A stretch of 64,000 nt of DNA from Candidatus Zixiibacteriota bacterium. Its GTDB lineage: Bacteria > Zixibacteria > MSB-5A5 > GN15 > FEB-12. Numbering within the stretch: position 1 is the first letter of the stretch; each line of letters starts with the position of its first letter. Made by a program: the position numbers and the translations under genes. Under the pieces are notes generated by a model, which did not search any database, was not told the origin of the DNA, and worked only from the letters and a program-made list of their open reading frames with translations. This document shows positions 4,719 to 32,964 of this stretch, one piece after another. The DNA lies in NCBI GenBank assembly GCA_029860345.1, contig JAOUBJ010000011.1, forward strand, positions 1 to 64,000, written 5' to 3'.

Positions 4719-4804
4719 CGACCAACACGTCAACTGAGAGAGTTGTTCATGGTAATGGGTAGGTGCAAAGGCAGCCTGCCTGTTTTTTTGGGAGACCGTC
4801 GTAT

Positions 4805-5224: not shown

Positions 5225-5257
5225 TGAGGTCTTGACCATCACGACTGAGGCAGGACA

Positions 5258-7519
5258 ATGAGTGCAGAGTTACTGAGAACACTGTGCTACTTTCTTACCG
5301 GTGGCTTTCTGATATTTCTGGCTATCACGATAACTCGTGACAACTTCAGGAGTCGACTGAACCGGATAAGCGGAGCCATGCTGTTTTTTGCAGGCTTGGG
5401 ACCGTTGTTCATGGCTATGGGCTCCATCCTCGCTTCCTCGGCCCCCGATCCGGCGGTCTTTGAAAACTCGCTCGTGTTCAAGCTGCGCCACCTGTGGGAG
5501 TTCTTCTTTCCGCTCCTGCTGGTATTCTCGTGGCAGTTTCCTTTTGATCGTATGGAACGTCTTGGTCACCGCTATCTCAGGCTGGCGATTTTCCTGCCGC
5601 CGCTTGCGCATCTTGTGATCGTACTGGGTTTCGATCAACTCTCCTCTGCTCTTAATCTGTTCGATGTAGCATCCACCGACGAGGGATTGTCCAGTCTCAT
5701 CGTGAAACCACTCTCGATACTGTTCTCGTGGCTGAAACTGATATTGAATGTGCTGCGCGGCTACGAACAATCGATTTTCAGCGCCGTAAATCTCATCTTT
5801 GTCGGTGCGGCCGGCTACTTTCTGGAAACCGGCAAGCGGCATGTCACCAATCCCAGGATTTTCACTCAGACCAAATGGGTCATGGCCGGCATGCGTGTCG
5901 GCCTGGGTCTTTTTGCGGCGGTCAAACTGGGCGAACTGTTGGCACCCCGGTTGTTCACCGAACCGGTGACCTCCACCCTGTTGGTGTTGGCCCTTCTCTC
6001 AGCCTCCGCACTGTTGATTTTCGCCACTATACGGCACCAGTTCCTGGACGTCCAGATGGTGTTTCGGCAGTCGTTCGTCAATACCATCACTTCGGCTTTG
6101 CTGGTCGGCGTCTACATTGTGGTGGTGGTACAGAGTCGCAGTATCCTGGCGGCCATGTTCGGTGTGGAGGCGGAAGTGATCAGCTATGGTTTGATAATTC
6201 TGCTTCTGTTGTTCTTTCAACCGATCAATAACTGGATCGACGATTTGATTCGTTCGATGTTCATGCGCACACGCACCGATCATCGCAACGTGATTGAACG
6301 TTTTTCACGTCAGGTTATCTCGATGTTCGACCCCAGAAAACTGCGACAGATTATTGAGGAGACATTCAAGACAACGCTTCTGGTTAACCGTGTATACTTC
6401 GTTCTCTACGACGATAACATCACCGAGTATGCGGTGCTTCCCAGCGATGACTATGACCAGCGCATTGTTGTCAGCCGACAGGACCTGATGTTAAGAGGCA
6501 TCAACCTACTGGACGCACCTACATACTATCACAGTCTGTCCGATTACGCCGTCAATTCCGAACTGGCGACGCTCCTGGAAGAACGCGGTGTGCGGATGAT
6601 CCTGCCGATGAAAGACGCCGATCATCTACTGGGATTCGTGGCCCTCACAGACAAGGCGGCCGGTTACCGGTATTCTTCGGAGGATCTCAATCTGTTGGGC
6701 GTACTTTCCAACCAGATGGTTTCGGCATTGACCAACGCCCGTCTCTATGTCGAGTCGCTTGAGCGCACGCGACTGCAGGAAGAGATCAACATGGCTCGTC
6801 AGATTCAGCTTGATCTATTGCCTTCGGAACCGCCCGCTTTGGGTTGCTCCACGATCTGCGCGCACTCGACGCCCTCACGCACGGTCGGAGGGGATTTCTA
6901 CGACTTCATCAGAGTAGACTCGGACCGAATCGGCATGGTCATTGCCGACGCCTCCGGCAAGGGGATGCCGGCTGCCTTGATGATTGCGCAGACTCAGGCG
7001 ATAATTCGCAGTGAGGTCAACAACGGTACGCCCATTCATACCATGCTGAAAAACGTCAACCAACAAATGGCCGATTCTACGTCGTCGGAAAAGTACGTGA
7101 CTCTGTTTTATGGTGAGCTAAACACCAACACCGGTCATTTCCTGTACGCCAATGCCGGGCATAACTATCCCATCCTGGCTCGGTCCGACGGTTCGGTCGA
7201 ATTGTTGAACTCCGGCGGCACGGTTATCGGCGCCCTGCCTGACATGGAATATGAATCGGCCACGGTGAAACTCGAAGCAGACGATATGCTGGTCCTGTTC
7301 ACCGACGGTCTCTCCGAAGCCATGGATGAAAGCGAAGTTGAATATGGTGAGCCCCGTCTCAGACAACTGGTCTCGAATCATCGCAGCAAAGACGCCGACA
7401 GCCTTATGGACATGGTGCTCGACGATGTACGCTCTCACGACCCCACCTATCCCCCGCGTGATGACACTACTATGGTAGCTCTCAAAATGAACGGTGGAAT
7501 CTCAAGCCATGAGCAATAA
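5258..7519 (+). CDS. Membrane PP2C (SpoIIE/RsbU-type) phosphatase with GAF-like domain
   Basis: A 753-residue protein. Residues 1-340 hold about eight hydrophobic segments (a 7TM-histidine-kinase-like sensor region), ~350-500 a GAF-like region, then a short linker helix (LEEINMARQIQLDLLPSEPP, typical before RsbU domains) and a PP2C phosphatase domain from ~540. Metal-binding motifs GGDFYDF, VIADASGKGMPAALM and LFTDGLSEA are intact, so it should be active. It is expected to dephosphorylate the STAS antagonist encoded upstream in response to a membrane or small-molecule signal. Its stop overlaps the following NUDIX start by 11 bases, tying the two modules into one transcript. Confidence 0.92.
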   Translation: MSAELLRTLCYFLTGGFLIFLAITITRDNFRSRLNRISGAMLFFAGLGPLFMAMGSILASSAPDPAVFENSLVFKLRHLWEFFFPLLLVFSWQFPFDRMERLGHRYLRLAIFLPPLAHLVIVLGFDQLSSALNLFDVASTDEGLSSLIVKPLSILFSWLKLILNVLRGYEQSIFSAVNLIFVGAAGYFLETGKRHVTNPRIFTQTKWVMAGMRVGLGLFAAVKLGELLAPRLFTEPVTSTLLVLALLSASALLIFATIRHQFLDVQMVFRQSFVNTITSALLVGVYIVVVVQSRSILAAMFGVEAEVISYGLIILLLLFFQPINNWIDDLIRSMFMRTRTDHRNVIERFSRQVISMFDPRKLRQIIEETFKTTLLVNRVYFVLYDDNITEYAVLPSDDYDQRIVVSRQDLMLRGINLLDAPTYYHSLSDYAVNSELATLLEERGVRMILPMKDADHLLGFVALTDKAAGYRYSSEDLNLLGVLSNQMVSALTNARLYVESLERTRLQEEINMARQIQLDLLPSEPPALGCSTICAHSTPSRTVGGDFYDFIRVDSDRIGMVIADASGKGMPAALMIAQTQAIIRSEVNNGTPIHTMLKNVNQQMADSTSSEKYVTLFYGELNTNTGHFLYANAGHNYPILARSDGSVELLNSGGTVIGALPDMEYESATVKLEADDMLVLFTDGLSEAMDESEVEYGEPRLRQLVSNHRSKDADSLMDMVLDDVRSHDPTYPPRDDTTMVALKMNGGISSHEQ

Positions 7520-8081
7520 GCACGACCAATTTGACGAAACCGCCCTGACCGCTTTGAAGAATCACCATTGTGGCTACCACTTTTGCCCCAAGTGCAGCCG
7601 CCCCCTGGTCGAGCAGGATGTCGAACATCGCCTGCGCATGATCTGTTCGGATGCCCAATGTGGCTTCATCTTCTACCAGAACCCTATCCCCGCCGCCGGG
7701 GTGGTGGTCGTGCAGGATAATCAGGTCCTGCTGGTCAAGCGGGCGCATCCGCCGCGCATAGGCTGGTGGTGCATCCCGGCCGGGTTCATGGAGTGGGACG
7801 AGCACCCCAGAGAAACAGCAGTGCGTGAGTTGGCCGAGGAAACAGGACTCGACATCCGGCTGACCTCTATCTTTGACGTTTACCACGGCAATGACGATCC
7901 ACGAACCAACGCCGTGCTTGTACTTTATCTCGGTGAAGTTGTTGGCGGCGAGTTACGGGCGGCCGATGATGCCCTGGACGTTCGTTGGTTTCCACTTGAC
8001 GACCTGCCTGAGAAACTCGCTTTTGTGGCTCACCACCAGGCTCTGCGAGACTACATCGATCGCTTCAGCAATGTAAAATGA
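7509..8081 (+). CDS. NUDIX hydrolase with N-terminal zinc ribbon
   Basis: A 190-residue protein. The N-terminus has a zinc ribbon (FCPKCSRPL then ICSDAQCGF), and the NUDIX box follows as GFMEWDEHPRETAVRELAEETGL, matching GX5EX7REUXEEXGU. This architecture is seen in NudC-like and ADP-ribose-type pyrophosphohydrolases; the substrate cannot be read from sequence, and the SQPWPFPxS NudC motif is not seen. The ATG at 7509 is chosen (an in-frame GTG at 7494 lies deeper in the upstream gene). Its last bases overlap the kinase start (ATGA), so it sits between a partner-switching phosphatase and a two-component pair in one operon. Confidence 0.88.
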   Translation: MSNKHDQFDETALTALKNHHCGYHFCPKCSRPLVEQDVEHRLRMICSDAQCGFIFYQNPIPAAGVVVVQDNQVLLVKRAHPPRIGWWCIPAGFMEWDEHPRETAVRELAEETGLDIRLTSIFDVYHGNDDPRTNAVLVLYLGEVVGGELRAADDALDVRWFPLDDLPEKLAFVAHHQALRDYIDRFSNVK

Positions 8082-9547
8082 TGGATACCGGCTTCGGCAA
8101 GAAACTGTTCAGGTTATTTCTGATGTTCTCCCTGCTGCCGTCGGCCGTGTTGGCCCTGTTCGGATACTACCTGACAACCGAGACAGCCAACATGCAAACA
8201 GCTGAAAAGAGTGTTGAGTCTATCGGCGTCGCCGACTATTACAAAATGTTCCTGTACGCCAGGATTGATTCCGCCTTGATCAACTACTCTGCCGACCTGT
8301 CGCCCAACCTGGTCGGACTGGATTTTCTTGTTTTTCGGTCCGCGAGTGCCGACACGGTGCTGTGGGGTGATTCGCTGGTCCAAGCGGTCACCGATGACCT
8401 GTGGACGCACGCCGGCAAAAAGGGATACGGCATGTTCGAATCGGAACACGGGCTGCTACAATACAAGTGCAGACTGCTCGGTGAGTCCACGCAAGTATGC
8501 GGTGGGTTCTTTCACCTGCCCGACTTTGCTCGGGTAATGGGCACCATGCAGAGGGAACAAGCAGGACGCTCGGCCGGTAAAGACCTTCGCCCGCGCTACC
8601 TGCTCTTTTTGGCCAGCCTGTTTCTGCTGGTGGGCGCCGTCACATTGGTCGTGGCTTACATCTTTTCGGCCAGACTGGCCCGCTCTCTGTCGCGCCCGTT
8701 GACCCAGCTCAGCGTCGCATCGAAAGAGATTGCCCAGGGTAGATTCGGCCAAACCGTTCCGCCGGCCGGGGTCGGAGAAATACGTTCGTTGATCGACAAC
8801 TTTAATCGGATGTCCCGTCGTTTGGAATTCACCACCAATCGCCTGGCCCAATCGGAACGAGTTGCCGCATGGCGTAGCGTGGCCCGACGATTCGCTCACG
8901 AACTCAAAAACCCGCTGCAGCCGATCATGATTTCGCTGCATCGCCTGCATACGATGCTGGCTGACTCGGAGCAGCATACTGAGGCGGCTGAACCGCTCCG
9001 AGCGGCTTCGGAAGAACTGAAGCATCTGGTCGAACTGGCCGACCGGTTCGCCCAACTGGCAAAACTTCCCGAGCCGACCCTTGAGATGGTGGACCTCACC
9101 GAATTGCTTGAAAGCATCGCGACCCTCTACCGTGACCGCATGGAAAAATACCAATTCGAAGTCGATCTTCAGGACCGGCCGGTGACAGCGCGGATCGACC
9201 CCACCTACTTTCGCGAAGCGCTGCACAACCTGTTGCAAAACGCCGCCGACGCCTCGTCCGAAAACGGCAGGATCCGTCTGGCCCTTTGTTTGCGCCGGGA
9301 TGAGATCGATATCGCGGTCGAAGACTTCGGCAGCGGCATGTCGGAAGAGATTGTTACGGCCTCCCGGTTGCCCGGTTTTACGACCAAGACGAAAGGGAAA
9401 GGGCTGGGCCTGGCCGTTGTTGAAAAGGTAGTAACCGAGATTGGCGGGCGGCTTTCTATCGATTCGCAGCAAGGCCGCGGGACCAGGATAACCATCACCC
9501 TCAGGCAGGAAACGGATACCGATGCGGCCGCGGATTCTGATAATTGA
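8078..9547 (+). CDS. NtrY-like membrane sensor histidine kinase
   Basis: A 489-residue kinase: transmembrane helix near residues 12-30, a ~140-residue extracytoplasmic sensor, a second helix (~175-200), HAMP region (RPLTQLSVASKEIAQGRF), then the histidine box RFAHELKNPLQP with His near residue 274. The ATPase boxes are LHNLLQNAADAS, VEDFGSGMSEE and KGLGLAVVEKVV. The HELKNPL box and the adjacent sigma-54 regulator point to the NtrY class. It begins within the NUDIX stop (ATGA) and its 3' end overlaps the regulator by 26 bases, indicating translational coupling. The signal is unknown. Confidence 0.92.
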   Translation: MMDTGFGKKLFRLFLMFSLLPSAVLALFGYYLTTETANMQTAEKSVESIGVADYYKMFLYARIDSALINYSADLSPNLVGLDFLVFRSASADTVLWGDSLVQAVTDDLWTHAGKKGYGMFESEHGLLQYKCRLLGESTQVCGGFFHLPDFARVMGTMQREQAGRSAGKDLRPRYLLFLASLFLLVGAVTLVVAYIFSARLARSLSRPLTQLSVASKEIAQGRFGQTVPPAGVGEIRSLIDNFNRMSRRLEFTTNRLAQSERVAAWRSVARRFAHELKNPLQPIMISLHRLHTMLADSEQHTEAAEPLRAASEELKHLVELADRFAQLAKLPEPTLEMVDLTELLESIATLYRDRMEKYQFEVDLQDRPVTARIDPTYFREALHNLLQNAADASSENGRIRLALCLRRDEIDIAVEDFGSGMSEEIVTASRLPGFTTKTKGKGLGLAVVEKVVTEIGGRLSIDSQQGRGTRITITLRQETDTDAAADSDN

Positions 9548-10862
9548 CGACGAGCCGAATATCACCAGTTCGTTCGCATCGCTGCTGGCCGACGAAGGAT
9601 ACTCAGCCGACTGTGCCGCCGATGCCGAGAACGGTCTCAAACTGTGTGACGGTACGGCTTTCGATCTGATTCTACTGGACTTGAACCTTCCCCGCCAATC
9701 GGGAATCGACTTTCTCAAACAGATCAAAAGAACCGCTCGCCCGCCGCTGGTACTGGTCATCTCCGGCCAAACAGAGATACCGGTCGCCCTGGATGCAATG
9801 AAACTCGGCGCCGTCGACTACTTGGAGAAACCGGTGTCAGCCGAGCGATTGGTTTCGTCGGTGCGCGCTGCCTTGATGCTGGCCAAGGCCGAACAACAAC
9901 GGGCTATAATGGCCGATGAGGTCGATGCGCATTCGCGAATAATCGGTCAATCAAATGCTCTGGACAGTTTGCTGGGTACCATCGACCAGGCCGCACCCAC
10001 CGATGTTACCGTCCTGATAGAGGGCGAGAACGGCACCGGTAAGGAACTTGTCGCCACTCGTATCCACCTCGAAAGCAAGCGGCGGGATCGACCCTTCATC
10101 AAAGTCAACTGCCCCGGTGTTCCTGAAACTCTGTTTGAATCGGAATTGTTCGGCCACCGCAAGGGAGCCTTCACCGGTGCTGTGAGAGATTTCCCCGGTA
10201 AGTTCGCGCTGGCCGACTCAGGTACCATATTCCTCGATGAAGTCGGCGACCTCCCGCTGTCCTGTCAGGCCAAATTATTGCGCGTACTGGAAACAGGCGA
10301 GGTGGAAACCCTGGGCGATCCCGAACGTCGGCGGGTCGACGTGCGCGTGATCGCCGCTACCAATCGCAATCTGTCAAAACTGATTGCCGAAACCAAGTTT
10401 CGCGAGGACCTGTACTATCGGTTGTCGGTCTTTCCCGTAAAGGTACCGCCGTTGCGTCAACGGATTGACGATGTGCCCCTTCTGGTGGGTGAGTTTTTGC
10501 GACGATTCGATCCCTCCGGCGGCACTACGCTGTCGAGTGAAGCCCTGGCCTATTTGACAACCCTTGACTACCCAGGCAATGTGCGCCAGTTGAAGAACAT
10601 CATCGAACGATTGACTATCGTATGCAGCGGTAGCACGGTTGTTCTGGACGATCTGATTCTGCAACTCAGCGCTGCCGGTCAGGCCTCTGTCTCTCCGAGC
10701 GGGAATGGCCTGAATGTGCGCCTGCGCATATTCGAAAAGCACCTGATCCAGTCTACCCTGGCCGCCTGTGGCGGAAATATCTCGGAAGCGGCTCGACTGC
10801 TTGAGGTCGATCGGGCGAATCTCTCCAGGAAAATCAAAGAGTTCGGGCTCAAAGACAGCTGA
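9522..10862 (+). CDS. Sigma-54-dependent response regulator (NtrC/NtrX family)
   Basis: A 446-residue regulator with three domains: a receiver (acidic pair IIDDEP, phospho-acceptor Asp in LILLDLNLP, Lys in VDYLEKPVS), an AAA+ domain (Walker A GENGTGKE, sigma-54 contact loop GAFTGA, Walker B-type IFLDEVGDL, arginine-finger region), and a Fis-type helix-turn-helix at the end (AARLLEVDRANLSRKIKEFGL). It should be phosphorylated by the overlapping kinase and then activate sigma-54 promoters. Targets are not evident; I did not find a clear GG-N10-GC promoter nearby. Confidence 0.95.
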   Translation: MRPRILIIDDEPNITSSFASLLADEGYSADCAADAENGLKLCDGTAFDLILLDLNLPRQSGIDFLKQIKRTARPPLVLVISGQTEIPVALDAMKLGAVDYLEKPVSAERLVSSVRAALMLAKAEQQRAIMADEVDAHSRIIGQSNALDSLLGTIDQAAPTDVTVLIEGENGTGKELVATRIHLESKRRDRPFIKVNCPGVPETLFESELFGHRKGAFTGAVRDFPGKFALADSGTIFLDEVGDLPLSCQAKLLRVLETGEVETLGDPERRRVDVRVIAATNRNLSKLIAETKFREDLYYRLSVFPVKVPPLRQRIDDVPLLVGEFLRRFDPSGGTTLSSEALAYLTTLDYPGNVRQLKNIIERLTIVCSGSTVVLDDLILQLSAAGQASVSPSGNGLNVRLRIFEKHLIQSTLAACGGNISEAARLLEVDRANLSRKIKEFGLKDS

Positions 10863-11221: not shown

Positions 11222-12970
11222 ATGACCAAACGGATAATTGTTCACATCACAATCGCAGCGTTAGCAGCGGCTTTCTGTTCCGCAGCGGCTGTTGCCGGAG
11301 ACGACGATTACCAGGACTACCGGGATGCCAACGGCTTTGCCGAACTGTTTCGCATTGTCTATCACGAAGATGATATCTCAATTCACTTCACCCAGGGAAA
11401 CAAGGAATACATGTCCCGCTACGCGCGCGATGACATCTCGATCAGGAACGGTGTCGTCGAGGTGAGTGGCGAGACTGTTTTTGACAGGAACGGTCTCATC
11501 ATCGATGGTGTCAGGCGCGACTATGAAAGTATTATAGACGTCACCATACTCGATGACGGTGATTTCTTCTCGATAACTTTTCTGACATCCGAATCCGAGT
11601 CTCGGCGTGTCGACCGCCTGCGCAAGGGAAATCGAATCAGTTTCGACCAGAACATGGTGGTCGAAGAGGACGAGTTCGTTCGTGGGCTGGCCCTCACCGT
11701 TATCGGAAATGCCGAGATCTATGGCGAGGTTAACAAGGATGTTGTCTCGCTGTTCGGGGACGTATACATCGGACCGGCCGCGGTGGCCCGCGGCGATGTG
11801 ACCAGCCTTACCGGACATGTCGATGTTGCGCGCGAGGCGACCGTGTACGGAGAAATGTTTACCCACGACAAAAAACGGGTGACACGACGCCATCGCTTCC
11901 GCCGGCGTATGGATCGTTTCGATATTGACTGCGATCTGCGGTACAACCGCGTTGACGGTTTGCAGATCGGTCTCGGCGGTATGTTTGAAGACCCCGATTC
12001 GCTCTTGCCAAGCATCTGGACAGACGGCGCCTACGCCTTTGCATCGGAACGATGGCGCTACGATTTCGGTCTGGAGCAGACCGTTCTGCGCAACCCGGCC
12101 CTGGCCGTCGGCGGCGAATACTATCGTCACCTGGTGTCCGAAGATGACTGGCTTTTGGACAATGACGAGAACACAGCCTTCGCGCTGGTGGTGGGCGAAG
12201 ACTACAAGGACTATTATGAGGCAGAGGGGGGGTGGGCGTACACCCGGCTCAAACCGACCGATGACTTGCAGCTACAGGTGGGTTATACCTACGAGGAAAC
12301 CAAGTGGCTTGACGCCCACCATAATCTCTGGCATCTCTTCGGCTCCAAGAAATTCGGCGACAACTACGAAACCGTCCCAGCCGGTTTTACCGATACTTTA
12401 ATGACTGAAGTGGATTCTTCCACCAACGCCTACCTGACCGTGGAGGCCGACTTTGATACCGGCGACCCCGAGGAACGTTTCGCCTCTTCCGCCTGGAAGG
12501 TCTCATCGGCCCTGGAATACGCCCACCCCGATTTTTCTTCGGACTTCAGTTATCGCCGGTACACTCTGGCCGTGACCCGTTTTCAGAAAGTGCATAGGCG
12601 CTCCATGTTGATTATGCGCGGTATGTACGGTGGCAGTGACGGATACTTACCCATTTATAAACGGTACTTCCTGGGTGGATTGGGCACCCTTCGCGGCTAT
12701 CGACACAAGGAGTACATGGGCACCAGATTCTGGATGGTCAATACTGAATATCGTACTCGCTTCCCGGGTTCCGACATCTCCGCCTCCCTCATCTGGGACC
12801 TTGGTAAGATCGGCAACGATACGGCCCTTGACTCAGATGTCGATCTCAAGCATTCGCTGGGCTTCGCCTTGACTCTGGGTGATGACTTTCGTATCAGCAT
12901 CGCCAAACGCCTGGACCGCTCCGAAGATAACGATCCGAGAATCTACGTTCGCCTGGCACAACCTTTTTAG
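11222..12970 (+). CDS. Outer-membrane beta-barrel protein with bactofilin-like segment
   Basis: A 582-residue protein with a signal peptide (IAALAAAFCSAAAVAG). Residues ~150-220 show short repeated beta motifs (GNAEIYGEVNKDVVSLFGDV, GPAAVARGDVTSLTGHVDV) resembling the right-handed beta-helix of polymer-forming bactofilin-type domains. The C-terminal half looks like a surface-antigen/BamA-family barrel: FLGGLGTLRGY is the conserved glycine-rich loop region, followed by alternating strands and a terminal phenylalanine (RLAQPF), as in outer-membrane proteins. It probably inserts in the outer membrane; whether it is a transporter or an anchor is unknown. Followed after 26 bases by a small secreted protein, likely co-transcribed. 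Confidence 0.8.
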   Translation: MTKRIIVHITIAALAAAFCSAAAVAGDDDYQDYRDANGFAELFRIVYHEDDISIHFTQGNKEYMSRYARDDISIRNGVVEVSGETVFDRNGLIIDGVRRDYESIIDVTILDDGDFFSITFLTSESESRRVDRLRKGNRISFDQNMVVEEDEFVRGLALTVIGNAEIYGEVNKDVVSLFGDVYIGPAAVARGDVTSLTGHVDVAREATVYGEMFTHDKKRVTRRHRFRRRMDRFDIDCDLRYNRVDGLQIGLGGMFEDPDSLLPSIWTDGAYAFASERWRYDFGLEQTVLRNPALAVGGEYYRHLVSEDDWLLDNDENTAFALVVGEDYKDYYEAEGGWAYTRLKPTDDLQLQVGYTYEETKWLDAHHNLWHLFGSKKFGDNYETVPAGFTDTLMTEVDSSTNAYLTVEADFDTGDPEERFASSAWKVSSALEYAHPDFSSDFSYRRYTLAVTRFQKVHRRSMLIMRGMYGGSDGYLPIYKRYFLGGLGTLRGYRHKEYMGTRFWMVNTEYRTRFPGSDISASLIWDLGKIGNDTALDSDVDLKHSLGFALTLGDDFRISIAKRLDRSEDNDPRIYVRLAQPF

Positions 12971-13629: not shown

Positions 13630-13739
13630 GCTACTGCGGCTCGTATCAGTCAGGCATTGAGTCCGCCGGGGGTTAATTCATTGCCTCCTCTCGCCGATAA
13701 TATGAATCAGTGTGAACCCCTGACTGAAAGTCCGGCTTG

Positions 13740-15530
13740 ATGGCAACTATGCACGATAAGACGACCAAGGAGCACTCAGTCGGTGATCTAATTGCTGAGG
13801 ACGAATCGGCAGCAAAGAAAATCACCGGGGACATCTTCGCCGATCTGGAGGCCACTCTGAACGAAGTGGCGGAGACCAATCCCAGAATCAACCTGAAACT
13901 TGCCGACGGCAACAAGACCACGACCGACCTGCAGGCGCTGCTAACGGTGTCGCAGGCGGTGAACTCATCGTTGGTTCTGGATGACGTGCTGCAGATTGTC
14001 ATGCAAAAGGCAATCGAATTGATGCAGGCGGAACGTGGCCTGATAATGCTTTTGGATGACGACAGCGAACTGCAAATCCGCACCGCCCACAATCTGGGTA
14101 GGAAAGAAATGATGCAGGAGGAGTTCCGGATATCCAACTCCGTCGTTACCAAAGTGGCCAAGACCGGAAAGTCGATCTATGCCTCCGACGCCCAGAGTGA
14201 TGCGCGCTATGCAGAACAAGCCTCGGTTGTTGAACTGAACCTGAGATCAATCATGTGCGTACCGATCAAGGAGCAAGGTTGCGTGATCGGCGTAATATAT
14301 GTCGACAATTCCAATCAGACCCGCATGTTTCTCAAGTCCGACCTCTACTTGTTTGAACTATACGCCCAGGCGGTTGCAGGCGCTCTGCGCAACGCTGCTC
14401 ATTACGACTCACTGCTTAAGCTCAAAAAGTACAACGAATCGGTCATCAATTTGTCACCGATCGGGATGGTGGTTGTCGACGATGGCTGCAATGTGGCTAC
14501 CATCAACACGACTGCCCTGGAGATACTCGAAATTAATATCGATGAAGTGACGGCGCTTGGCGATGAAGAACCGCTGACACCCTTTCTGGAACTTTTGCAG
14601 CCGGATGAACGATCTCGCTGGCGCAACATGATAGATACCGCCCTGAGCACCAACGAGGATTTTTCGGACCCCCGGTATTTTCATAACACCGGTTATATCG
14701 AGAAAGTGTTGTCGATTAAAATCTCGCCTACCTCGGCCTTGCCCAAGGGTGACACCGGCCTGATAATCACTATCGAAGACATTACAGAAAAAGTACTGAT
14801 GGAAAAGTATGTTATTCTCTCGGAGAAACTTGCCGCCAAGGGGGAGATGGCGGCATCTATCGCTCACGAGTTGAACAACTACCTGGCCATTGCCGCTACC
14901 AACGCCGAGTTGATGGGCATGAATCTCGACCGGGATAAGTTTGACAAGGCCCGCTTCAACGCCAAATCTATCGTCGACAATATCTTCAAGATCAAGCGGT
15001 TCGTCGACAATCTGATGGCTTTCGCACAACCCGAGCCGGAGTACATCAGCTACGATATCAAGCACCTGATTGAGGATATGCTGTTCTCGCTGCGCGTGCA
15101 ACCACGTCTTAAACGAATCCACTTCACAATTGACCTGGGGCGCGCTATCCCCAATCTCGAAATGGATGTTGGTCAGATTCAGCAGGTGCTGATGAACCTG
15201 CTCAACAACGCCGCCGATGCCATTGAAGAAAGGGCCATCGCCGAGCAAGCAGTCGGAAATGACTTCAAGCGGGAGATCGGGATAATCGCAGGCTACAACG
15301 AACGGTCAGGACTTGTCTCGATTGACGTCACCGACAACGGTGTCGGCATGGCCCAGGAGATCCTAAGCAAGTTGTTCACTCCGCACTTCACCACCAAGAA
15401 GGGCGGGCACGGCCTTGGACTGTCCAACTGCCGAAAAATCGTCGAGAGCCATCAGGGAAAACTTACAGCCAAATCGACTCTCGGCCACGGCAGCACCTTC
15501 ACCCTGACTCTGCCGCACAAGTTGACCTAA
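13740..15530 (+). CDS. Cytoplasmic GAF-PAS sensor histidine kinase
   Basis: A ~596-residue soluble kinase. Residues ~65-220 form a GAF domain (LLTVSQAVNSSLVLDDVLQI, MCVPIKEQGCVIGVIYVDN), ~230-350 a PAS-like region, then a dimerisation helix with the histidine in SIAHELNNYLAIAATNAEL, and an ATPase domain with NLLNNAADAIEE, VTDNGVGMAQE and HGLGLSNCRKIV. No response regulator adjoins, but a Ser/Thr kinase starts 20 bases downstream. The ATG at 13740 is used; no clear ribosome-binding site is seen, and ATG at 13749 is possible. Confidence 0.9.
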   Translation: MATMHDKTTKEHSVGDLIAEDESAAKKITGDIFADLEATLNEVAETNPRINLKLADGNKTTTDLQALLTVSQAVNSSLVLDDVLQIVMQKAIELMQAERGLIMLLDDDSELQIRTAHNLGRKEMMQEEFRISNSVVTKVAKTGKSIYASDAQSDARYAEQASVVELNLRSIMCVPIKEQGCVIGVIYVDNSNQTRMFLKSDLYLFELYAQAVAGALRNAAHYDSLLKLKKYNESVINLSPIGMVVVDDGCNVATINTTALEILEINIDEVTALGDEEPLTPFLELLQPDERSRWRNMIDTALSTNEDFSDPRYFHNTGYIEKVLSIKISPTSALPKGDTGLIITIEDITEKVLMEKYVILSEKLAAKGEMAASIAHELNNYLAIAATNAELMGMNLDRDKFDKARFNAKSIVDNIFKIKRFVDNLMAFAQPEPEYISYDIKHLIEDMLFSLRVQPRLKRIHFTIDLGRAIPNLEMDVGQIQQVLMNLLNNAADAIEERAIAEQAVGNDFKREIGIIAGYNERSGLVSIDVTDNGVGMAQEILSKLFTPHFTTKKGGHGLGLSNCRKIVESHQGKLTAKSTLGHGSTFTLTLPHKLT

Positions 15531-15550: not shown

Positions 15551-18500
15551 ATGAAACCACCCCCTCTGCCGAAATGCATTCGGTATCTGGGCCACCTTGG
15601 TCGCGGGGGAACGGCAGAAGTCGGTCGGGTGCGTGTGGACGGCCTTCCCTTCGACGTTGCGCTGAAATACCCTGCCACCAATGACAACGAGGCAATCGCC
15701 GCTTTTCGCCACCTGGCCGATCGTGAACGACTTCTCATCGGCGACCTTGAATTCCCCGGGCTGGTGCGAATCATCGATCACTCTGAGTTGGACGCTCACT
15801 ACCTGTTGCTTGAGTTGTGCGAAGGTCCCACCCTTGACGGTGTGGGAACAACTCACGATGTCCAAAAGGTGCTGGATATTCTGAGCGCCCTGGCCCTGAA
15901 TCTGAATTTCTTGAACATCCATCACCGCGTCCACGGTGATCTCAAACCTCAAAACGTCTTCCTGCCCGCATCATGGTCCGAAACAGGGCTGGGCCAACTG
16001 TTCTACCTGAAACTTTCCGACTTCTCTCTTGGCCGGCGCCTGGATGAATCTGAAGGTTCTCGGGCCGGACTGGGCACGGTGGGATACATGGCCCCGGAAA
16101 CATTGACCGACGAAATCTGCGATCACCGTTCCGACCTCTTTGCCCTGGGTGTGATCGCCTGGCAGTTAACAACCGGCCATCACCCCTTCATCGATCCGAA
16201 CGACGCCGACCCGGTGCGCACAAATAGCCGCGTCTGTGAAGCTCAACCGTTTTCCCCGGGTGAAGTACGCAGCGAAGTGCCCAAGAAAGTAACCGAACTC
16301 ATGGCGGCTTTGATGGAGAAAGACCCGAGTAACAGACCGGCCTCGGGTGGAGAAGTTTGCGCTAGTCTGAGGGAGGCCGGCGCCGCCTACCCGTATGAAA
16401 AGGGGTTGAGACCAAAGCACCTGATGACTGCGGCTGGTTCCTACGCTGAGAAGATCGACCAGTCGCTGCACCTGAACTCAAGTCGGCGCCAACGCCTGGA
16501 CCGTATCACCAACCACGATCATCAGTGTTTGAGGATGGTCCTGAACGCCAATTTTCTAAAGGGTGCGCTCGTTCTCAAACAGGATCGGTTTGAGTTTACC
16601 AGGTCCATATACCGGCCACACCGCTTACGACGGCATTGGCTGAACCACTACGCCTCCGCCGATATGGGAGCGCGTCGCAAAATCATTCAAAGGGCGGTGG
16701 TGGGCGACCAAACGATGGCCGAACATTTGGGCTTGTTCAATCCCGAGACCAAGGCTCCCCCGGACGGGCTGGTAGAGATGATCCTTCCCCTTCTGAAACC
16801 GTCGACGGTGCGGTTACTAACGGCCCGTTTTGCTCCCTCAGCGGAGAAACTGAAGTTGTACGCTGCGGCCGCTCGGTATTACGTTCAATCCGGCAATCTT
16901 GAAGGCGCCGAACGGTGTGCTTTTCAAGCCGCTGTGGCTTTGAATAAGAAGCATCAGAACGAGGCCGCCCTTCGCCTGTTGCAGAGCGTCATCCGGTACG
17001 CCCGCCTGACCGACCGGACTTTTGAAGTGAGACAACTGTTGATGAATCGTGGCGACATCCTCAAAGAGATTGGCGACGCTGCCCCGGCCATGGCCGCCTA
17101 CGATGAGATAATTGCATTGTACGAAGGGCAACCGGCCGACAAACTCCTGGCCGAGACCTACAAAGACATGGGCGACCTGTACAAAATCAAGCAGGAGCCG
17201 GCTGCAGGTTTGTCGGCCCTTGAGAAGGCGATGAGGATTTACTCTGAACTCGGCGATGAATTGGAGATTTCGCACACTCTCAACAATATCGGTAACCTGC
17301 ATTGGGTGGGTGCAGACTATCCGGCGGCTCTGAGATCCTACCGTCGCGCCTTGAGAATTCAGCGACGGCACAAGGCGATGGATAACGTTGCCTCAACACT
17401 GAGCAATATTGCATCGATACTGGCCATCCGTGGCAAGTTGGTGCGTGCCACCCGACTTTTCAGTTTGTCGATCGATATTTGCCGCGAAACCACCAACCAA
17501 CTTGAGGAAGCACGCATCCTCAACAATCTGGGCTACGTTTACCACCTGCGCGGCATGTCCGACGAAGCGGTAGACAGCCTGGAGAGTTCGCTGGAAATAA
17601 ACCGAAAGATAGGCACCAAAAAGGAGATTCTGTTCAATCTGGAGAATCTGACGGCCATCATGATAGGCGCCGGGCAACTTAGACAATCGGTCAAGTATCT
17701 GCAGGAAGGCATGACCCTGGCCACCGAGCTTGATGACACCGCACACCTGGGCGCATTCACCGGCGATATGGGCAGGACGCTCAAGCGCATGGGACGGTTC
17801 AGTGAGGCCGAAGCCTTGTATAGTGATGCTGCTTCTCTTTACGAAGAGGTTGAAGATCCCATCGGTCGCGCCCGTCTGGAGATCAGCCGGGCAGACTTGC
17901 GAGACAGGATAGGTGATGCCCAAAGCGCCGGCCAGATTGCCCTTGAAACCTTGAAGCAGCGAGCGGCGGTGAACGATAAGCCCCAGGAACTGGAAGCGCT
18001 GTTGGTGTTAACCAGGGTCACCGACTCACCAGAGCATCTTGAGCGCGCCCGTGAATTGGTGGCCGAGTTGAAGTTGGAGCGAGAACGGGTTGTGGTCGAG
18101 TTTAACGCTCTCAGCAGGGCCTTGCGACGAGGCGTAACCAGGACGGAGATCGATCCGTACACCGAGATTGTGGAAACTCTGGACACTATTAAGAACGATA
18201 TCGAATTGCCGTGGATGTGCAGCCTGGCCGGCGAACTCATGATAGCCGGCGACCGCCATTCGGATGCACTAATATACCTGGAGCGCTCGCTGAAACTGGC
18301 CGAGAGTTTTGGACTGCTGCCCGAACAGATCGACAGCCAGACGCTTATCGGCCGGGTTCACCTGCATGCCGGGAATTATGAATCGGCCTATGGCTGCTTT
18401 CGCATGGCCTTTGAGACGGCCCGCACAATATCGGGACAGATCAGCAACCCGGATGATCAGAATTCGTTTCAGAACCTGCCGACGATTAAGTTTCTGGTGG

Positions 18501-18556
18501 TTGAAATAAAGCGGCTGGCGCAATTACTGGCGCCACAAAAACGGGCAGGTGCTTGA
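15551..18556 (+). CDS. Ser/Thr protein kinase with TPR repeats
   Basis: A 1001-residue protein. The Hanks-type kinase domain covers ~10-280: glycine loop GHLGRGGTAEVGRV, catalytic Lys39 in VALKY, catalytic loop HGDLKPQN (Asp130), metal Asp in SDFSL (DFG replaced by DFS) and GTVGYMAPE. Arg of HRD is Gly, as in kinases not needing activation-loop phosphorylation. Residues ~450-1000 are tetratricopeptide repeats (e.g. LNNIGNLHWVGADYPAALRSY). No transmembrane helix is seen. It resembles large Pkn-TPR kinases of other gene-rich signalling bacteria. Its end overlaps a hairpin that also terminates the opposing peptide gene. Confidence 0.92.
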   Translation: MKPPPLPKCIRYLGHLGRGGTAEVGRVRVDGLPFDVALKYPATNDNEAIAAFRHLADRERLLIGDLEFPGLVRIIDHSELDAHYLLLELCEGPTLDGVGTTHDVQKVLDILSALALNLNFLNIHHRVHGDLKPQNVFLPASWSETGLGQLFYLKLSDFSLGRRLDESEGSRAGLGTVGYMAPETLTDEICDHRSDLFALGVIAWQLTTGHHPFIDPNDADPVRTNSRVCEAQPFSPGEVRSEVPKKVTELMAALMEKDPSNRPASGGEVCASLREAGAAYPYEKGLRPKHLMTAAGSYAEKIDQSLHLNSSRRQRLDRITNHDHQCLRMVLNANFLKGALVLKQDRFEFTRSIYRPHRLRRHWLNHYASADMGARRKIIQRAVVGDQTMAEHLGLFNPETKAPPDGLVEMILPLLKPSTVRLLTARFAPSAEKLKLYAAAARYYVQSGNLEGAERCAFQAAVALNKKHQNEAALRLLQSVIRYARLTDRTFEVRQLLMNRGDILKEIGDAAPAMAAYDEIIALYEGQPADKLLAETYKDMGDLYKIKQEPAAGLSALEKAMRIYSELGDELEISHTLNNIGNLHWVGADYPAALRSYRRALRIQRRHKAMDNVASTLSNIASILAIRGKLVRATRLFSLSIDICRETTNQLEEARILNNLGYVYHLRGMSDEAVDSLESSLEINRKIGTKKEILFNLENLTAIMIGAGQLRQSVKYLQEGMTLATELDDTAHLGAFTGDMGRTLKRMGRFSEAEALYSDAASLYEEVEDPIGRARLEISRADLRDRIGDAQSAGQIALETLKQRAAVNDKPQELEALLVLTRVTDSPEHLERARELVAELKLERERVVVEFNALSRALRRGVTRTEIDPYTEIVETLDTIKNDIELPWMCSLAGELMIAGDRHSDALIYLERSLKLAESFGLLPEQIDSQTLIGRVHLHAGNYESAYGCFRMAFETARTISGQISNPDDQNSFQNLPTIKFLVVEIKRLAQLLAPQKRAGA

Positions 18557-18567
18557 GACACCTGCCC
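18543..18567 (-). terminator. Shared hairpin terminator between kinase and micro-gene
   Basis: Perfect 9-bp stem (GGGCAGGTG at 18543-18551, CACCTGCCC at 18559-18567), 7-base loop. Read on the minus strand it is followed by GTTTTTG, a usual Rho-independent end for the peptide gene at 18599-18673; on the plus strand it overlaps the kinase stop and has only a poor T tract. A second small hairpin (AGACCT/AGGTCT, 18578-18592) lies between it and the peptide stop. Confidence 0.75.
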
Positions 18568-18598
18568 TTAGTCTTACAGACCTCGAAGGTCTTAAGGC

Positions 18599-18673
18599 TT
18601 ACTGTCCACCCTGGCTGAACGCCGGAGCGATGCGAGCTTCTAAGACCTCGATTGTGAGTTTGTAATCTTTCAT
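18599..18673 (-). CDS. 24-residue peptide, candidate exported or modified precursor
   Basis: A 24-codon reading frame that begins MKDYKLTIEVLEARIAP and ends SQGGQ. Support for it being real: AAGGAGG at 18681-18687 sits 7 bases before the ATG; a consensus promoter lies at 18767-18794; a terminator follows at 18543-18567. The charged, helix-prone first part and small Gly/Gln/Ser tail resemble a leader-core layout. The gene upstream on the same strand encodes a fusion of a PqqD-like domain, an M50 membrane metalloprotease and a HlyD-like arm, a set known from handling of ribosomal peptides (YydH-like proteases). No modifying enzyme is in view, so processing and export are inference. The LEARIAP word resembles short N-terminal LEERIAP-type motifs I associate with planctomycete proteins; homology is unproven. 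Confidence 0.72.
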   Translation of the reverse strand: MKDYKLTIEVLEARIAPAFSQGGQ

Positions 18674-18766
18674 TAACTCACCTCCTTGCAGTCCTATCGG
18701 TTTACTCCGGAGCGAGTGCTATCCAAACACCCTTAACATCAACGTACTATACTCCAGAGCCAAACA

Positions 18767-18794
18767 AATATAACGAAAGCCTGTAATCTGTCAA
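18767..18794 (-). promoter_or_regulatory. Strong sigma-70 promoter of the 24-residue peptide gene
   Basis: Minus strand: TTGACA (rc of 18789-18794), 16-base spacer, TATATT (rc of 18767-18772). It lies in the 216-bp gap after the protease-exporter gene and gives a leader of about 87 bases, so the peptide can be expressed independently and at a higher level than the large gene. Confidence 0.7.
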
Positions 18795-18889
18795 GGCCAA
18801 AATGGGGTCTAATTAGCCATAATTCTACGCAGAACCTGCTCTCGGATCGGCAGTTATGGTAGGAAATAATTCACCGGACGCGGAAAAGA

Positions 18890-21199
18890 TTACCACCAGG
18901 ACCAAAACTCGACACGCATCTCAGATGCTATTTTGCGGCCGATAAGGCTGATAAGAGACGCCTTTCCACACTCGATCTTGGCAAATCCTGTCATCCCTCT
19001 TCGCAGCCTGCCCTCTTTGTTATCTACGATCACGGACACCGGGAAGACGGCTTCGTGATCGGTATACTGCGCGCTGAGCGGCACCAGGGCAACACGCCCG
19101 AGGAAAACCTCACCGGCATGCGATCGTACTTTGACTCGGACAGTCTGTTCGCACTCAACCAGATTGACATCGAAATCAGAAACCGGAACCAGCAGTTCGA
19201 CCTCATGGTCATCAACAATTGACAGGATGAGTTCGTCGCCCATGCCCAGATCGACACGGCCTGACATGGGAGCACGAATGGTCTGGGCCGCCTGCTGGGA
19301 CCTGAGAAAATCCAATTTGGCTTCCTGTTTGTCGATCTCCGCCTGAAGGACGGCGATCTCCTCAGGTTTCGGCCCGGAAAGCAACAATTGAAGCGATGCC
19401 TCCTTGGTTTTTAGCTCGGCCGCCGCAATGCTGACCGCGGATTCGGCGTCCTCCAGTTCGCGCTTCGGTTTCATCTCTCTGGAAGCCAGTTCGGAGGCGA
19501 GTTCCAACTCGCGGCTTCGCTGTTGATGATTGATACGGGCGGCGGTCACTTGCGCCTGGGCTTCGGCGACCGCATCCTTCTTGGGTGGCGCCCTCAGCAG
19601 GTCCATCTGGGTAAACACTTCGTCAAGCACCGAAGTCTCGGCAATGATTTCCTTGGCCACCTGGTTGGATACGAGCACGGCCACCGAGTCTCCCTCGACT
19701 ACATACTGACCTTCTTTCACCAACCTGAGCAGGTTAAGCGAGGCCATGTCGGTTGAGGCTGTCTGCAGAAAACTTGTTTTACGGTCGGCATCTTTACCGC
19801 CACGCCGGTAGACCGTTTCCAGCAGGCCCAACTCATTCAGGCGCAGTCGACATTCGGCGATTGGACGAACCAGAACCTCACCGGTGACCCGCCGAGGAAA
19901 CGGAACGGCCAGCATGAGTACAACCACGGCGGCGGCGATGACAATATTCCCGACAAGTCGCCATGGTTTTCGGTAAAGGGTCTTCATAAATCTCAGGTGC
20001 TTCAGGATTCCTCTTGCAAATCCCATAAATGTTTGTCTCAAGGTAACAAACAGAAATGTAGCCAACAACAACAAACCGAAGCCGCCGGCCACACCGATCA
20101 GAAACGAAGCAATCACCGACAACACCCAGACCAGCAAAACACCGGTGTACATGACGGCAAACACCGAGTACCAGAGGAAAACTCGTTTTTCCCGTCGACT
20201 TACATCGATCGATTCGACAGGCCAGCCGAGCAGCAATCGTTTCAGCCAGTTACCCAGGTAGGCAAACGATTTCCGGCGCAAGTTGGGAATGTCCAGCCAG
20301 TCCGACAATAAATAGTATCCATCCAGCTTGATAAGCGGGTTCAGGTTGACCAGAAGTGTGACCCAGCTGATGATGACGATAATCCGGAATAGATCGTTGG
20401 GTACGCCGCCGACCACGGTGATTCGCCAGGCTATAGCCGCGACAGCCATAAGTATTAATTGAAAGTAAGGACCGGCGGCGGTGACGGCCAGGCGGTGGCG
20501 CTTTTTCTCAAACAGCCAGGCATCCGACAGGTCGCAGTAGAAGGCCGGTTGAAAATAAAGCAGCAAGAACCCCATCTCGCGCACCTCTCCCCCGTGGTAG
20601 TGACAAATCACGGCGTGGGCGAATTCGTGGACGACAAAGAACACAAATATGGCGGCGATCACGACAAGTATGGAACCCAAATTGAAAATGCTGTACAGAC
20701 TGACCGTGAACTCAGATGCATTGGTCATGAGGACCCAGAGTCCCAACAAGATTGCCGCGGCCTGCACGGTAAACCCGAAACGGTTGTGGAAGGGGCGATA
20801 GATTGAAGTGAGCCGTTTCAGAAAACCGCCCGGAGAGAACGCTTTCAGTTTGACAAACAACAACCTGGAAAACAAAGAACCCTGCTTGTCTATCAAGTAA
20901 CTCTTACGCGACACCGCCTGCTCGGCGCGGGCATTGTCGAGAAAGAAGAGTTTTTCCAGAGCCTCAACAAACTGCCCGACGTTCTCGGCGCTGATATTCA
21001 GGTCGAATTTCGCCTGGAAGCGCTCGGCGATCAGATCGTATGACGTCGTGCCGTCGAGCTGTTGCACCAGCCAGTATTCCGGTTCGCGCAATCTGAAGTA
21101 ACTTCCCCTTATAGGGTCCTTCATGTTGTAGACCGTCTCGCCATCCACGGTGGCCGGCGCCACGACCAGATCGCTGCGCAACTTGGCATAAGTAGACAT
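18890..21199 (-). CDS. PqqD-like / M50 metalloprotease / HlyD-like fusion protein
   Basis: A 769-residue membrane protein. Residues ~1-95 look like a PqqD/RRE-type winged helix (WLVQQLDGTTSYDLIAERF). Residues ~140-410 are a site-2-type M50 protease: zinc motif HEFAH at 191-195 inside a membrane helix and the third ligand in NLNPLIKLDGYY (Asp293). From ~430, after a last membrane helix, comes a HlyD/membrane-fusion arm with a lipoyl half (VTGEVLVRPIAECRL), a long coiled coil (~540-640) and the second lipoyl half (IRAPMSGRVDLGMGDEL). Such putative peptide zinc metalloproteases accompany ribosomally made peptides. Gene order places the 24-residue peptide directly downstream. Start at 21199 has only a weak ribosome-binding site. 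Confidence 0.88.
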   Translation of the reverse strand: MSTYAKLRSDLVVAPATVDGETVYNMKDPIRGSYFRLREPEYWLVQQLDGTTSYDLIAERFQAKFDLNISAENVGQFVEALEKLFFLDNARAEQAVSRKSYLIDKQGSLFSRLLFVKLKAFSPGGFLKRLTSIYRPFHNRFGFTVQAAAILLGLWVLMTNASEFTVSLYSIFNLGSILVVIAAIFVFFVVHEFAHAVICHYHGGEVREMGFLLLYFQPAFYCDLSDAWLFEKKRHRLAVTAAGPYFQLILMAVAAIAWRITVVGGVPNDLFRIIVIISWVTLLVNLNPLIKLDGYYLLSDWLDIPNLRRKSFAYLGNWLKRLLLGWPVESIDVSRREKRVFLWYSVFAVMYTGVLLVWVLSVIASFLIGVAGGFGLLLLATFLFVTLRQTFMGFARGILKHLRFMKTLYRKPWRLVGNIVIAAAVVVLMLAVPFPRRVTGEVLVRPIAECRLRLNELGLLETVYRRGGKDADRKTSFLQTASTDMASLNLLRLVKEGQYVVEGDSVAVLVSNQVAKEIIAETSVLDEVFTQMDLLRAPPKKDAVAEAQAQVTAARINHQQRSRELELASELASREMKPKRELEDAESAVSIAAAELKTKEASLQLLLSGPKPEEIAVLQAEIDKQEAKLDFLRSQQAAQTIRAPMSGRVDLGMGDELILSIVDDHEVELLVPVSDFDVNLVECEQTVRVKVRSHAGEVFLGRVALVPLSAQYTDHEAVFPVSVIVDNKEGRLRRGMTGFAKIECGKASLISLIGRKIASEMRVEFWSWW

Positions 21200-26368: not shown

Positions 26369-26396
26369 AATATAGCAAACTCTATCCTGTTGTCAA
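26369..26396 (-). promoter_or_regulatory. Sigma-70 promoter of the calcium-loop lipoprotein
   Basis: TTGACA (rc of 26391-26396), 16-base spacer, TATATT (rc of 26369-26374), 24 bases from the ATG at 26345. Confidence 0.7.
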
Positions 26397-26399
26397 CTT

Positions 26400-26719
26400 T
26401 GGTGTGGACTGTGGGCGGTGGTTTACACCGTGCGGTTGGGGCGGGTGGGTTTCGACGCTAAGTACCAGTCCGTCATGCCGGACTTGATCCGGCATCCTGT
26501 TTGAAGTACAAAGACTGGATTCTGGCCTACGCCAGTTCTTAGTAGGGCAGGATCCCTGTGATCCTGCCAATCTTTGCCGGCATCGCAAGGATGCCGCTCT
26601 ACTAAGAGGAAGATGGATTCCCGCCTTCGCGGGAATGACACCCATAAATGGGTCTTATGGTCTGCCCCGGTGTCAACGTGGCGCACGAGGACGTACACCA
26701 CGCACGAAGAGACTCACGC
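26400..26719. repeat. Intergenic repeat mosaic
   Basis: Contains palindromes at 26546-26568 (GGCAGGATC/GATCCTGCC) and around 26615-26632 (ATTCCCGC/GCGGGAAT), a GTCATGCCGGACTTGATCC word and, at 26675-26705, a 31-base word found inverted at 61474-61504. No gene is seen. Confidence 0.55.
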
Positions 26720-32093: not shown

Positions 32094-32765
32094 ATGAGTG
32101 ATTTCATGAATAAACTCAATCGACGGTTCGACCACGCCGCGCTGAAACCGGAAGTGGATGAAGCCGCTGTCCGTACACTTTGCAAAGAAGCTATCGAGAA
32201 CGACTTCTACTCGGTCGCTATCAACCCGGTATGGGTGCGGACGGCAGCCGACGAGTTGAAAGGCAGTGCGGTCAAGATACTTTCGGTGGCCGGGTTCCCA
32301 CTGTCGGCGGCGCGAACCGATGTCAAACTGTTCGAAGCAATCAAAGGCGTCGATGACGGCGCGCACGAAATCGATATGGTGGCCAATGTCGGCTGGATGG
32401 TATCGGATCGTTTCAAAGAGGTAGAGACCGAGATAGCCGAGATTCGAAGTAAGCTGCCGTTCAATGTAGTGCTGAAGGTCATTATCGAAGCGGGCAAGCT
32501 CACGACCGAACAACAGATCGAAGCAACAAAATGCATCATAAACGCCGGCGCACAGTTTGTAAAAACCTGCACCGGCTTTTTCGGCGGTGCGACACTCGAG
32601 CAGATCCGAACGCTGCATGAAGCAGCAGCCGGGCAGATCGAAGTGAAGGCCTCGGGTGGTATCCGCACGCTCGAACAATGCCGCGAGTTCCTGGCCGCCG
32701 GCGCGACACGGCTGGGCAGTTCATCGTCGGTGGCGATTATGGGAGAGTTGAATGCAGTCTTGTAG
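32094..32765 (+). CDS. deoC: Deoxyribose-phosphate aldolase
   Basis: A 223-residue TIM-barrel aldolase. The Schiff-base lysine is in FVKTCTGF, the second lysine in VKASGGIRT, and the catalytic aspartates in EIDMVANVG. DeoC cleaves 2-deoxyribose-5-phosphate to glyceraldehyde-3-phosphate and acetaldehyde. The ATG at 32094 is chosen; the longer reading frame upstream overlaps the promoter of the opposing gene. No other deo gene is near. Confidence 0.95.
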   Translation: MSDFMNKLNRRFDHAALKPEVDEAAVRTLCKEAIENDFYSVAINPVWVRTAADELKGSAVKILSVAGFPLSAARTDVKLFEAIKGVDDGAHEIDMVANVGWMVSDRFKEVETEIAEIRSKLPFNVVLKVIIEAGKLTTEQQIEATKCIINAGAQFVKTCTGFFGGATLEQIRTLHEAAAGQIEVKASGGIRTLEQCREFLAAGATRLGSSSSVAIMGELNAVL

Positions 32766-32964
32766 GGCAGGACCCCTGTGGTCCTGCCGATCTTGGCGGC
32801 TACGGGGACTCCGTCCCAAACAAGGTTTGAGACGGCCACCCCGAGTAAAGGACGGATTCCTGCTTTCGCAGGAATGACAAGTCGAGCAGGAATGACAAGT
32901 CGAGCAAGAGTGACAAGTCGAGTAGGGCGGGACCGCCGAACCATTTACGAGAGGAGAATGCGCC
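32766..32964. repeat. Palindrome and 18-bp tandem repeat
   Basis: Palindrome at 32766-32788 (GGCAGGACC/GGTCCTGCC), a dispersed CAAGGTTTGAGACGGCCACC word at 32815-32842, and three copies of an 18-bp unit (AGGAATGACAAGTCGAGC) at 32870-32923. Confidence 0.7.

Follow-up and report, generated by a model that had tools for sequence, protein, structure and literature searches.

The 24-codon gene studied here, the fusion protein encoded beside it and the adjoining kinase genes probably make up an unrecognised system of short-peptide secretion and signalling. The reading preferred here, to which we assign a probability of roughly 55%, is that of a leader-guided system for secreting a short peptide, coupled to a signalling cassette centred on a kinase-TPR protein. 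Across the phylum a predicted core of 7-8 residues is paired with a kinase-TPR gene, which leads to a specific hypothesis of signalling or peptide phosphorylation, testable with synthetic peptides. A more ambitious proposal is put forward tentatively, at somewhat less than even odds: a new, minimal class of ribosomal peptides, in which a single RRE-protease-adaptor fusion recognises, cuts and exports, the ELExRIAP leader is common to many phyla and, in Zixibacteria, a dedicated kinase-TPR protein takes the 7-8-residue product as its ligand or substrate. Such a system of short-peptide signalling (or of phosphopeptides) would, if real, be the first of its type to be described in a diderm candidate phylum.

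The precursor gene and the fusion protein

Within the window (the whole stretch of DNA analysed, 64,000 nucleotides of a Zixibacterium), the precursor gene lies on the reverse strand at 18599..18673. Its 24-residue translation is MKDYKLTIEVLEARIAPAFSQGGQ, in which the predicted cut separates the leader MKDYKLTIEVLEARIAP from the core AFSQGGQ. The sequence-only reading had taken this short frame for a real transcription unit, and each of its signals was confirmed. The TTGACA-16-TATATT promoter (18794-18767, reverse strand) agrees with 11 of 12 consensus positions, 0.3 such sites being expected in shuffled sequences, and its position is kept in relatives, with TTGACR-16/17-TATWYT found again at -110 to -124 from the peptide in most members of the same family. 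It is followed by the ribosome-binding site AAGGAGG (18681..18687, reverse strand) and, beyond the frame, by an intrinsic terminator (18567-18543, reverse strand), a hairpin and then GTTTTTG, for which the expectation was 0.4. The terminator extends into the final codons of the kinase gene, which converges on it, and is weaker when read in the opposite direction; the folding energy of the 3' region is -29.9 kcal/mol (z -5.7). The gene is under purifying selection, with 2517, 1840 and 6396 differences at codon positions 1, 2 and 3 and a pN/pS of 0.26 among 40 homologues. In its 5'-UTR no structure is conserved and no Rfam family reaches the cut-off, while the peptides matched no NCBIfam family and only chance-level families in Pfam. 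The host genome carries no second strong copy of either the peptide or the fusion.

The fusion protein (769 residues; 18890..21199, reverse strand) had been described as a PqqD-like domain joined to an M50 protease and a HlyD-like arm, an architecture upheld by profile and predicted fold. The RRE (residues 3-89) is weak by sequence, PF05402 being matched in 9 of 16 homologues with a best value of 5e-4, and clear by predicted fold, the model aligning with a lasso B1 protein whose structure was solved together with its leader (6jx3_B; Z 11.1, rmsd 2.4, 83 residues aligned). Such a PqqD/lasso-B1 fold, here as predicted, is a hallmark of leader-guided RiPP processing. The M50 domain (about residues 124-400) exhibits the site-2 protease hallmarks HExxH and NPxxxxD in a membrane domain, as HEFAH (191-195) and NPLIKLD (287-293). 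The zinc ligands H191/E192/H195 and the NPLIKLD motif are invariant in 16 homologues, and H191, E192, H195, P288 and D293 in 41; the predicted structure resembles SpoIVFB (Z 10.0) and RseP (Z 9.7). A transmembrane segment leads from the protease to the membrane-fusion arm (about residues 433-755), whose predicted structure has the adaptor fold of MacA (Z 15.2) and EmrA (Z 14.1), and the protein ends in a conserved RVEFWSWW. The daptide_HExxH profile NF041824 of NCBIfam covers residues 31-394 (E 1.1e-71), yet its 242 bits fall short of the curated cut-off of 300, so that the fusion is a clear relative outside the DapP/daptide_HExxH family. The YydH/LiaK profile NF058609 matched weakly (44.8 vs 225 bits).

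The precursors of Zixibacteria measure 21-35 residues and share the consensus YxLxVEVLEARIAP|xGxSxGGQ, in which the core Ser is nearly invariant and the end is GGQ or a variant of it. Daptide leaders carry ELExMEAP and are cut after the Pro by an RRE-S2P protein (PMC10036551); VLEARIAP in Zixibacteria and ELExRIAP in other phyla correspond to this in a motif comparison in which cleavage is a prediction. Judged by its motif, the zixibacterial leader is daptide-type, and a cut after Pro would thus release a peptide of 7-8 residues, here AFSQGGQ. The predicted RRE, site-2 protease and export-arm folds, together with this daptide-like leader, support the earlier proposal that the fusion may recognise, cut and export the small peptide.

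Distribution and the kinase-TPR neighbour

Peptide and fusion occur together far more often than apart across 132 genomes of Zixibacteria, an uncultured phylum (odds ratio 54): both are present in 95 and neither in 24, with seven genomes having the peptide only and six the fusion only, meaning that a peptide was not detected. In 58 of the 95 the two lie within 5 kb of each other and in 37 they are unlinked and both kept. The pairing proposed from the sequence was therefore not refuted by the search for homologous fusions lacking the small gene beside them, and it is supported. What had been left out is the peptide's most constant neighbour, a gene for a Ser/Thr protein kinase-TPR protein of 1001 residues (15551..18556, forward strand) with intact kinase motifs and, at residues 417-999, a TPR superhelix, a domain of the peptide-binding type. 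It stands tail-to-tail with the peptide gene in 56 of the 77 peptides read, including many loci with the fusion elsewhere, and in most loci the peptide frame is located within about 25-150 bp of the kinase stop codon. Kinase motifs and TPR Asn pairs are conserved across families. Immediately upstream, and conserved there, is a GAF-histidine kinase gene (13737..15530, forward strand); an Omp85/DUF5686-like outer-membrane protein (11222..12970, forward strand) belongs to the same cassette in many relatives, and the conserved neighbours include ClC and others besides these three. Both the kinase-TPR protein and the GAF-histidine kinase look cytosolic. PADLOC matches of the kinase were generic kinase matches, and VIA-align with the model of the kinase-TPR protein listed no TPR protein, as matches to the kinase domain take up the whole list.

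Two genera depart from this arrangement. In g12, peptide and fusion were lost together from two genomes, a congener having both, and in these two the kinase-TPR gene runs directly into the ClC gene. In g30, the kinase-TPR gene is missing from all four genomes and the SxGGQ core is lost too, the cores instead reading S[RK][YWF]G.. and occurring in as many as seven copies; across the phylum the peptide occurs at about one copy per genome.

Proposed mechanism and competing explanations

In the preferred reading, the precursor would be made at a high level, as its consensus promoter and ribosome-binding site suggest. Its N-terminal YxLxVEVLE would dock as a strand on the RRE of the fusion, as the fold and the solved structures of RRE-leader pairs suggest, and the M50 domain would cut after the Pro of LExRIAP, as in daptide precursors, freeing the core. 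The fused MacA/EmrA-like arm may then pass the core over the periplasm, the likely recipient being a channel of the TolC type; TolC-type proteins are present. The GAF-histidine kinase and the kinase-TPR protein, whose genes are demonstrably linked to the peptide's, would be its functional partner, most likely its sensor, in whose Asn-rich TPR groove the peptide would bind; the peptide would therefore be an autocrine or intercellular signal. We infer cleavage, export and the role of the kinase, whether sensor or tailoring enzyme, from these features. Several observations count against the preferred reading: no ABC exporter that might supply the energy is linked, and the kinase-TPR gene persists without the peptide in genomes of g12, as does the peptide without that gene in g30. 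The 99%-complete host genome contains no SBP_bac_5 match, so that no OppA-type peptide-binding protein was found; with cytosolic-looking kinases, sensing an exported peptide would thus require another importer, for which two OPT-family proteins are possible candidates, or sensing before export. Long-term synteny within one phylum is also not proof of function.

The same apparently cytosolic location suits a different role for the kinase-TPR protein, that of a tailoring enzyme whose TPR domain binds the cytoplasmic precursor and whose kinase phosphorylates the core Ser, the fusion acting afterwards to cut and export the phosphopeptide; no re-import would then be needed. The earlier statement that no modifying enzyme is present is unsafe, since the neighbouring kinase is apparently intact and the core Ser nearly invariant; no dedicated modifying enzyme was found, and this kinase is a candidate for one. 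Ser or Thr occurs at core positions 2-6 in 55 of 56 peptides adjoining the kinase-TPR gene, and g30 lost the kinase and the SxGGQ core alike. There is precedent in lasso-peptide kinases such as PadeK, which are encoded with the precursor and phosphorylate a conserved Ser in it ahead of maturation (PMC9266682), although the present kinase is PknB-like with TPRs and the peptide a candidate substrate only. Yet Ser is common anyway, g30 is a single event, the kinase-linked core GGFIGGGS (locus L135) has no Ser at the usual place, and a position behind a GAF-histidine kinase gene fits signalling better. Tailoring appears rather unlikely.

An exported antimicrobial or envelope-acting peptide, with a kinase cassette that merely regulates or monitors production, is less probable again. 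Related M50 proteases serve the epipeptide YydF and daptides, and the several divergent copies of g30 recall antimicrobial clusters; however, a polar, Gly-rich core of 7-8 residues kept phylum-wide, with roughly one copy in each genome, does not resemble toxins, which diversify, and no immunity gene was recognised. The same copy number of about one, the RRE logic and the lack of linkage in 37 of 95 genomes would suit a precursor whose cleaved fragment serves as a cofactor or structural element retained in the envelope (PQQ/mycofactocin-like), its modifying enzymes encoded elsewhere. No modifying enzyme is conserved nearby, though, and a cytosolic cofactor would have no need of a fused export arm, which makes this reading very improbable. 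Ordinary synteny, with the short frame being spurious or having a regulatory role for the kinase gene at whose 3' end it lies, could account for its proximity to the stop codon in most loci. This reading is largely excluded by the pN/pS, the strong ribosome-binding site, the gene's own promoter, its retention with the fusion even when unlinked and an amino-acid motif common to precursors of other phyla whose genes adjoin no kinase of this sort.

Relation to known systems and occurrence in other phyla

The nearest known relatives are the daptides (MpaA/MpaP; PMC10036551, PMC12338566), which share an RRE-site-2-protease protein and short precursors with a similar leader. Here, in contrast, the protease is fused to a membrane-fusion arm, and the core, instead of being hydrophobic with an invariant C-terminal Thr, has 7-8 residues and mostly ends in GGQ; DapB, DapC, DapD and DapM were not recognised among the profiled genes of the conserved neighbourhood. 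The epipeptide protease YydH/LiaK (NF058609; PMC7026026) is likewise an M50 enzyme, believed to free a short ribosomal peptide and export it, but the present protein adds an RRE and a HlyD arm, and no radical-SAM epimerase is seen. Rgg-SHP-Eep and other RRNPP systems (PMC7564271) also combine a precursor of about 20-30 residues, an M50 protease, a C-terminal mature peptide and a precursor gene adjoining that of a TPR protein, a trait found here in the tail-to-tail kinase-TPR gene. They differ from this diderm system, which is RRE-guided, has a Ser/Thr kinase rather than a DNA-binding or Rap protein as candidate receptor and for which no OppA-type importer that could serve Opp re-import was found. 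The C-terminal half of the fusion shares the adaptor fold of MacA/EmrA/HlyD in tripartite pumps, yet at the inner membrane it is joined in cis to a protease and not partnered by an ABC, MFS or RND transporter.

The fusion also occurs in Acidobacteria, Verrucomicrobia and Planctomycetes, among others, where it adjoins one or more ELExRIAP precursors whose Gly/Asn-rich tails are longer. Matches of these peptides to HxsA4 and collagen-like models were due only to the repetitive tails, and kinase-TPR/BTAD genes near the fusion (L096, L107, L108) are common in those phyla and were not counted as evidence. Nothing relevant on the LExRIAP motif or on M50-HlyD fusions was found in the literature, the coverage of which is incomplete. 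From Zixibacteria to these phyla, the leader LExRxAP of the precursors is thus defined, and with it a proposed single-protein machine for recognition, cutting and export; together, leader and fusion make it possible to search uncultured bacteria for many peptide genes that lack annotation. In the other phyla, 43 short frames of the LExRIAP type lie within 2.5 kb of the fusion, as against none in 253 kb farther away.

Peptide gene and fusion protein

The 24-residue precursor gene (18599-18673, minus strand), which translates to MKDYKLTIEVLEARIAPAFSQGGQ, has a TTGACA-16-TATATT promoter (18794-18767, minus), an AAGGAGG ahead of its ATG, and a hairpin-T terminator (18567-18543, minus) sharing sequence with the final codons of the convergent gene. 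The sequence does contain these signals and the short frame, all claimed in the sequence-only reading; promoter and terminator were located by scans against shuffles. A TTGACR-16/17-TATWYT promoter repeats within the family at near-constant spacing (-110 to -124). That reading had also proposed looking for a conserved small gene 3' of homologous fusions, and a short ORF with YxLxVExLEARIAP...SxGGQ is indeed found there in nearly all fetched loci. Residues Y4, L6, L11, E12, A16 and P17 are invariant among 28 aligned peptides, while 40 homologues give a pN/pS of 0.26, with third-position changes 2.5-3.5 times those at other codon positions.

The fusion protein (769 aa; 18890-21199, minus) matches the daptide intramembrane metalloprotease profile NF041824 over residues 31-394 (E 1.1e-71, below the curated cut-off), and its C-terminal half matches several periplasmic-adaptor profiles. 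In its structure model (pLDDT 84), an N-terminal RRE superposes (Z 11.1, rmsd 2.4, 83 residues) on the structure of a lasso-peptide B1 protein bound to its leader, followed by a site-2 protease (S2P) domain resembling SpoIVFB and RseP and a MacA/EmrA-like arm; profiles and predicted folds bear out the RRE-M50-HlyD architecture proposed earlier. TolC-type proteins are present.

The host genome has one copy of the fusion, which also occurs in 47 of 61 near relatives. Named relatives are mostly Candidatus Zixiibacteriota or Zixibacteria. A phylum-wide count over 132 genomes found both genes in 95, neither in 24, the peptide only in seven and the fusion only in six (Fisher p 8e-15, uncorrected for phylogeny, many genomes being incomplete MAGs). 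The two lie less than 5 kb apart in 58 genomes, and in 37 they sit on separate contigs or at a distance of over 20 kb, so that the association is not merely a by-product of linkage. Both are missing from two genomes of one genus (g12), where the kinase-TPR gene is directly followed by a ClC-channel gene; a congener has both at that place. A precursor-processor pair is strongly supported.

Daptide precursors carry ELExMEAP as leader motif and are cleaved behind its Pro; the proposed enzyme is an RRE-S2P peptidase (PMC10036551, PMC12338566). In the Zixibacteria system the RRE would recognise the peptide, cleavage after Pro would, by analogy with daptides, yield AFSQGGQ, and the fusion would export this core. 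The system represents a novel form of RRE-S2P peptide processing guided by a leader and does not count as a daptide system; the original finding was sound, and understated.

A kinase-TPR partner

The sequence-only reading missed a second partner, a protein in which a long TPR superhelix comes after a Ser/Thr kinase domain (15551-18556, plus). Its homologues mostly remain tail-to-tail with the peptide gene even where the fusion is elsewhere, with a GAF-histidine kinase gene upstream. The kinase-TPR gene lies within 500 bp of 56 of the 77 Zixibacteria peptides read; many of the others come from genus g30, sit at contig ends or are extra copies. Genus g30 is an instructive case: no kinase-TPR match was found at 1e-25 in any of its four genomes (three single-contig, three at least 95% complete), and the peptides in these genomes (up to seven) carry the core S[RK][YWF]G.. 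in place of xGxSxGGQ. In a genus that has lost kinase-TPR, 4-7 divergent peptide genes stand in tandem (L041, 12488-13584; L046, 12462-14171). The kinase-TPR model is of high confidence (pLDDT 91), its predicted kinase domain matching PknB (Z 31); K39, D130, K132, N135 and D157, the catalytic residues, are kept, and Asn pairs repeat in the TPR helices, distant families included. The link between kinase and peptide is well supported.

As to its role, a sensor of the peptide is modestly favoured over a tailoring kinase. Linkage to the peptide gene, the GAF-histidine kinase partner and the TPR Asn pairs all fit a sensor, for which Rgg-SHP-Eep offers a parallel (PMC7564271), yet no OppA-type importer was found in the host genome, though two OPT-family proteins exist. 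Tailoring would need no import, and Ser/Thr at core positions 2-6 is kept in 55 of 56 kinase-linked cores, and lasso kinases act in this way on a conserved Ser (PMC9266682); it ranks modestly behind the sensor.

An Omp85/DUF5686-type outer-membrane protein (11222-12970) is conserved in the kinase cassette. Parts of a signalling run (4763-10862: RsbW-like ATPase, RsbU-like PP2C, NUDIX, histidine kinase, NtrC-type regulator) stay upstream of the GAF-histidine kinase and kinase-TPR genes in several distant Zixibacteria families.

Other phyla and a dispersed repeat

Fusion homologues occur in MAGs labelled, by their depositors, Acidobacteria, Verrucomicrobia, Planctomycetes, Eisenbacteria, Rokubacteria, Aminicenantes and Bacteroidetes. 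Short ORFs with ELExRIAP-type leaders, singly or several together, often adjoin these homologues, and most have longer Gly/Asn/Pro-rich tails. The 2.5 kb to either side of the fusion hold 43 of these ORFs, spread over 20 loci; the other 253 kb of this set of loci hold none. L100 (11714-12067) and L102 (7837-8315), one from a MAG labelled Aminicenantes, carry the precursor MAKKSTKKVVKLNVERLEKRIAPTRAAIAMG in 3-4 almost identical tandem copies, oriented convergently to the fusion. In L096, L098 and L109 precursors lie upstream of it, and the core motifs GGYDGQPGNQS and NPGNNNPPxNNTNNPGNEGTGGQVSTG recur. That MAGs of different phyla share these motifs suggests that whole sets have spread horizontally.

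Elsewhere in the window, a short repeat, VIPAKAGI/SFPRRRESI, is dispersed in several frames (26382-26701, 32207-32966, 33600-33757), with a tandem stretch near 32870-32940, and resembles a small repeat of mobile or REP-like type.
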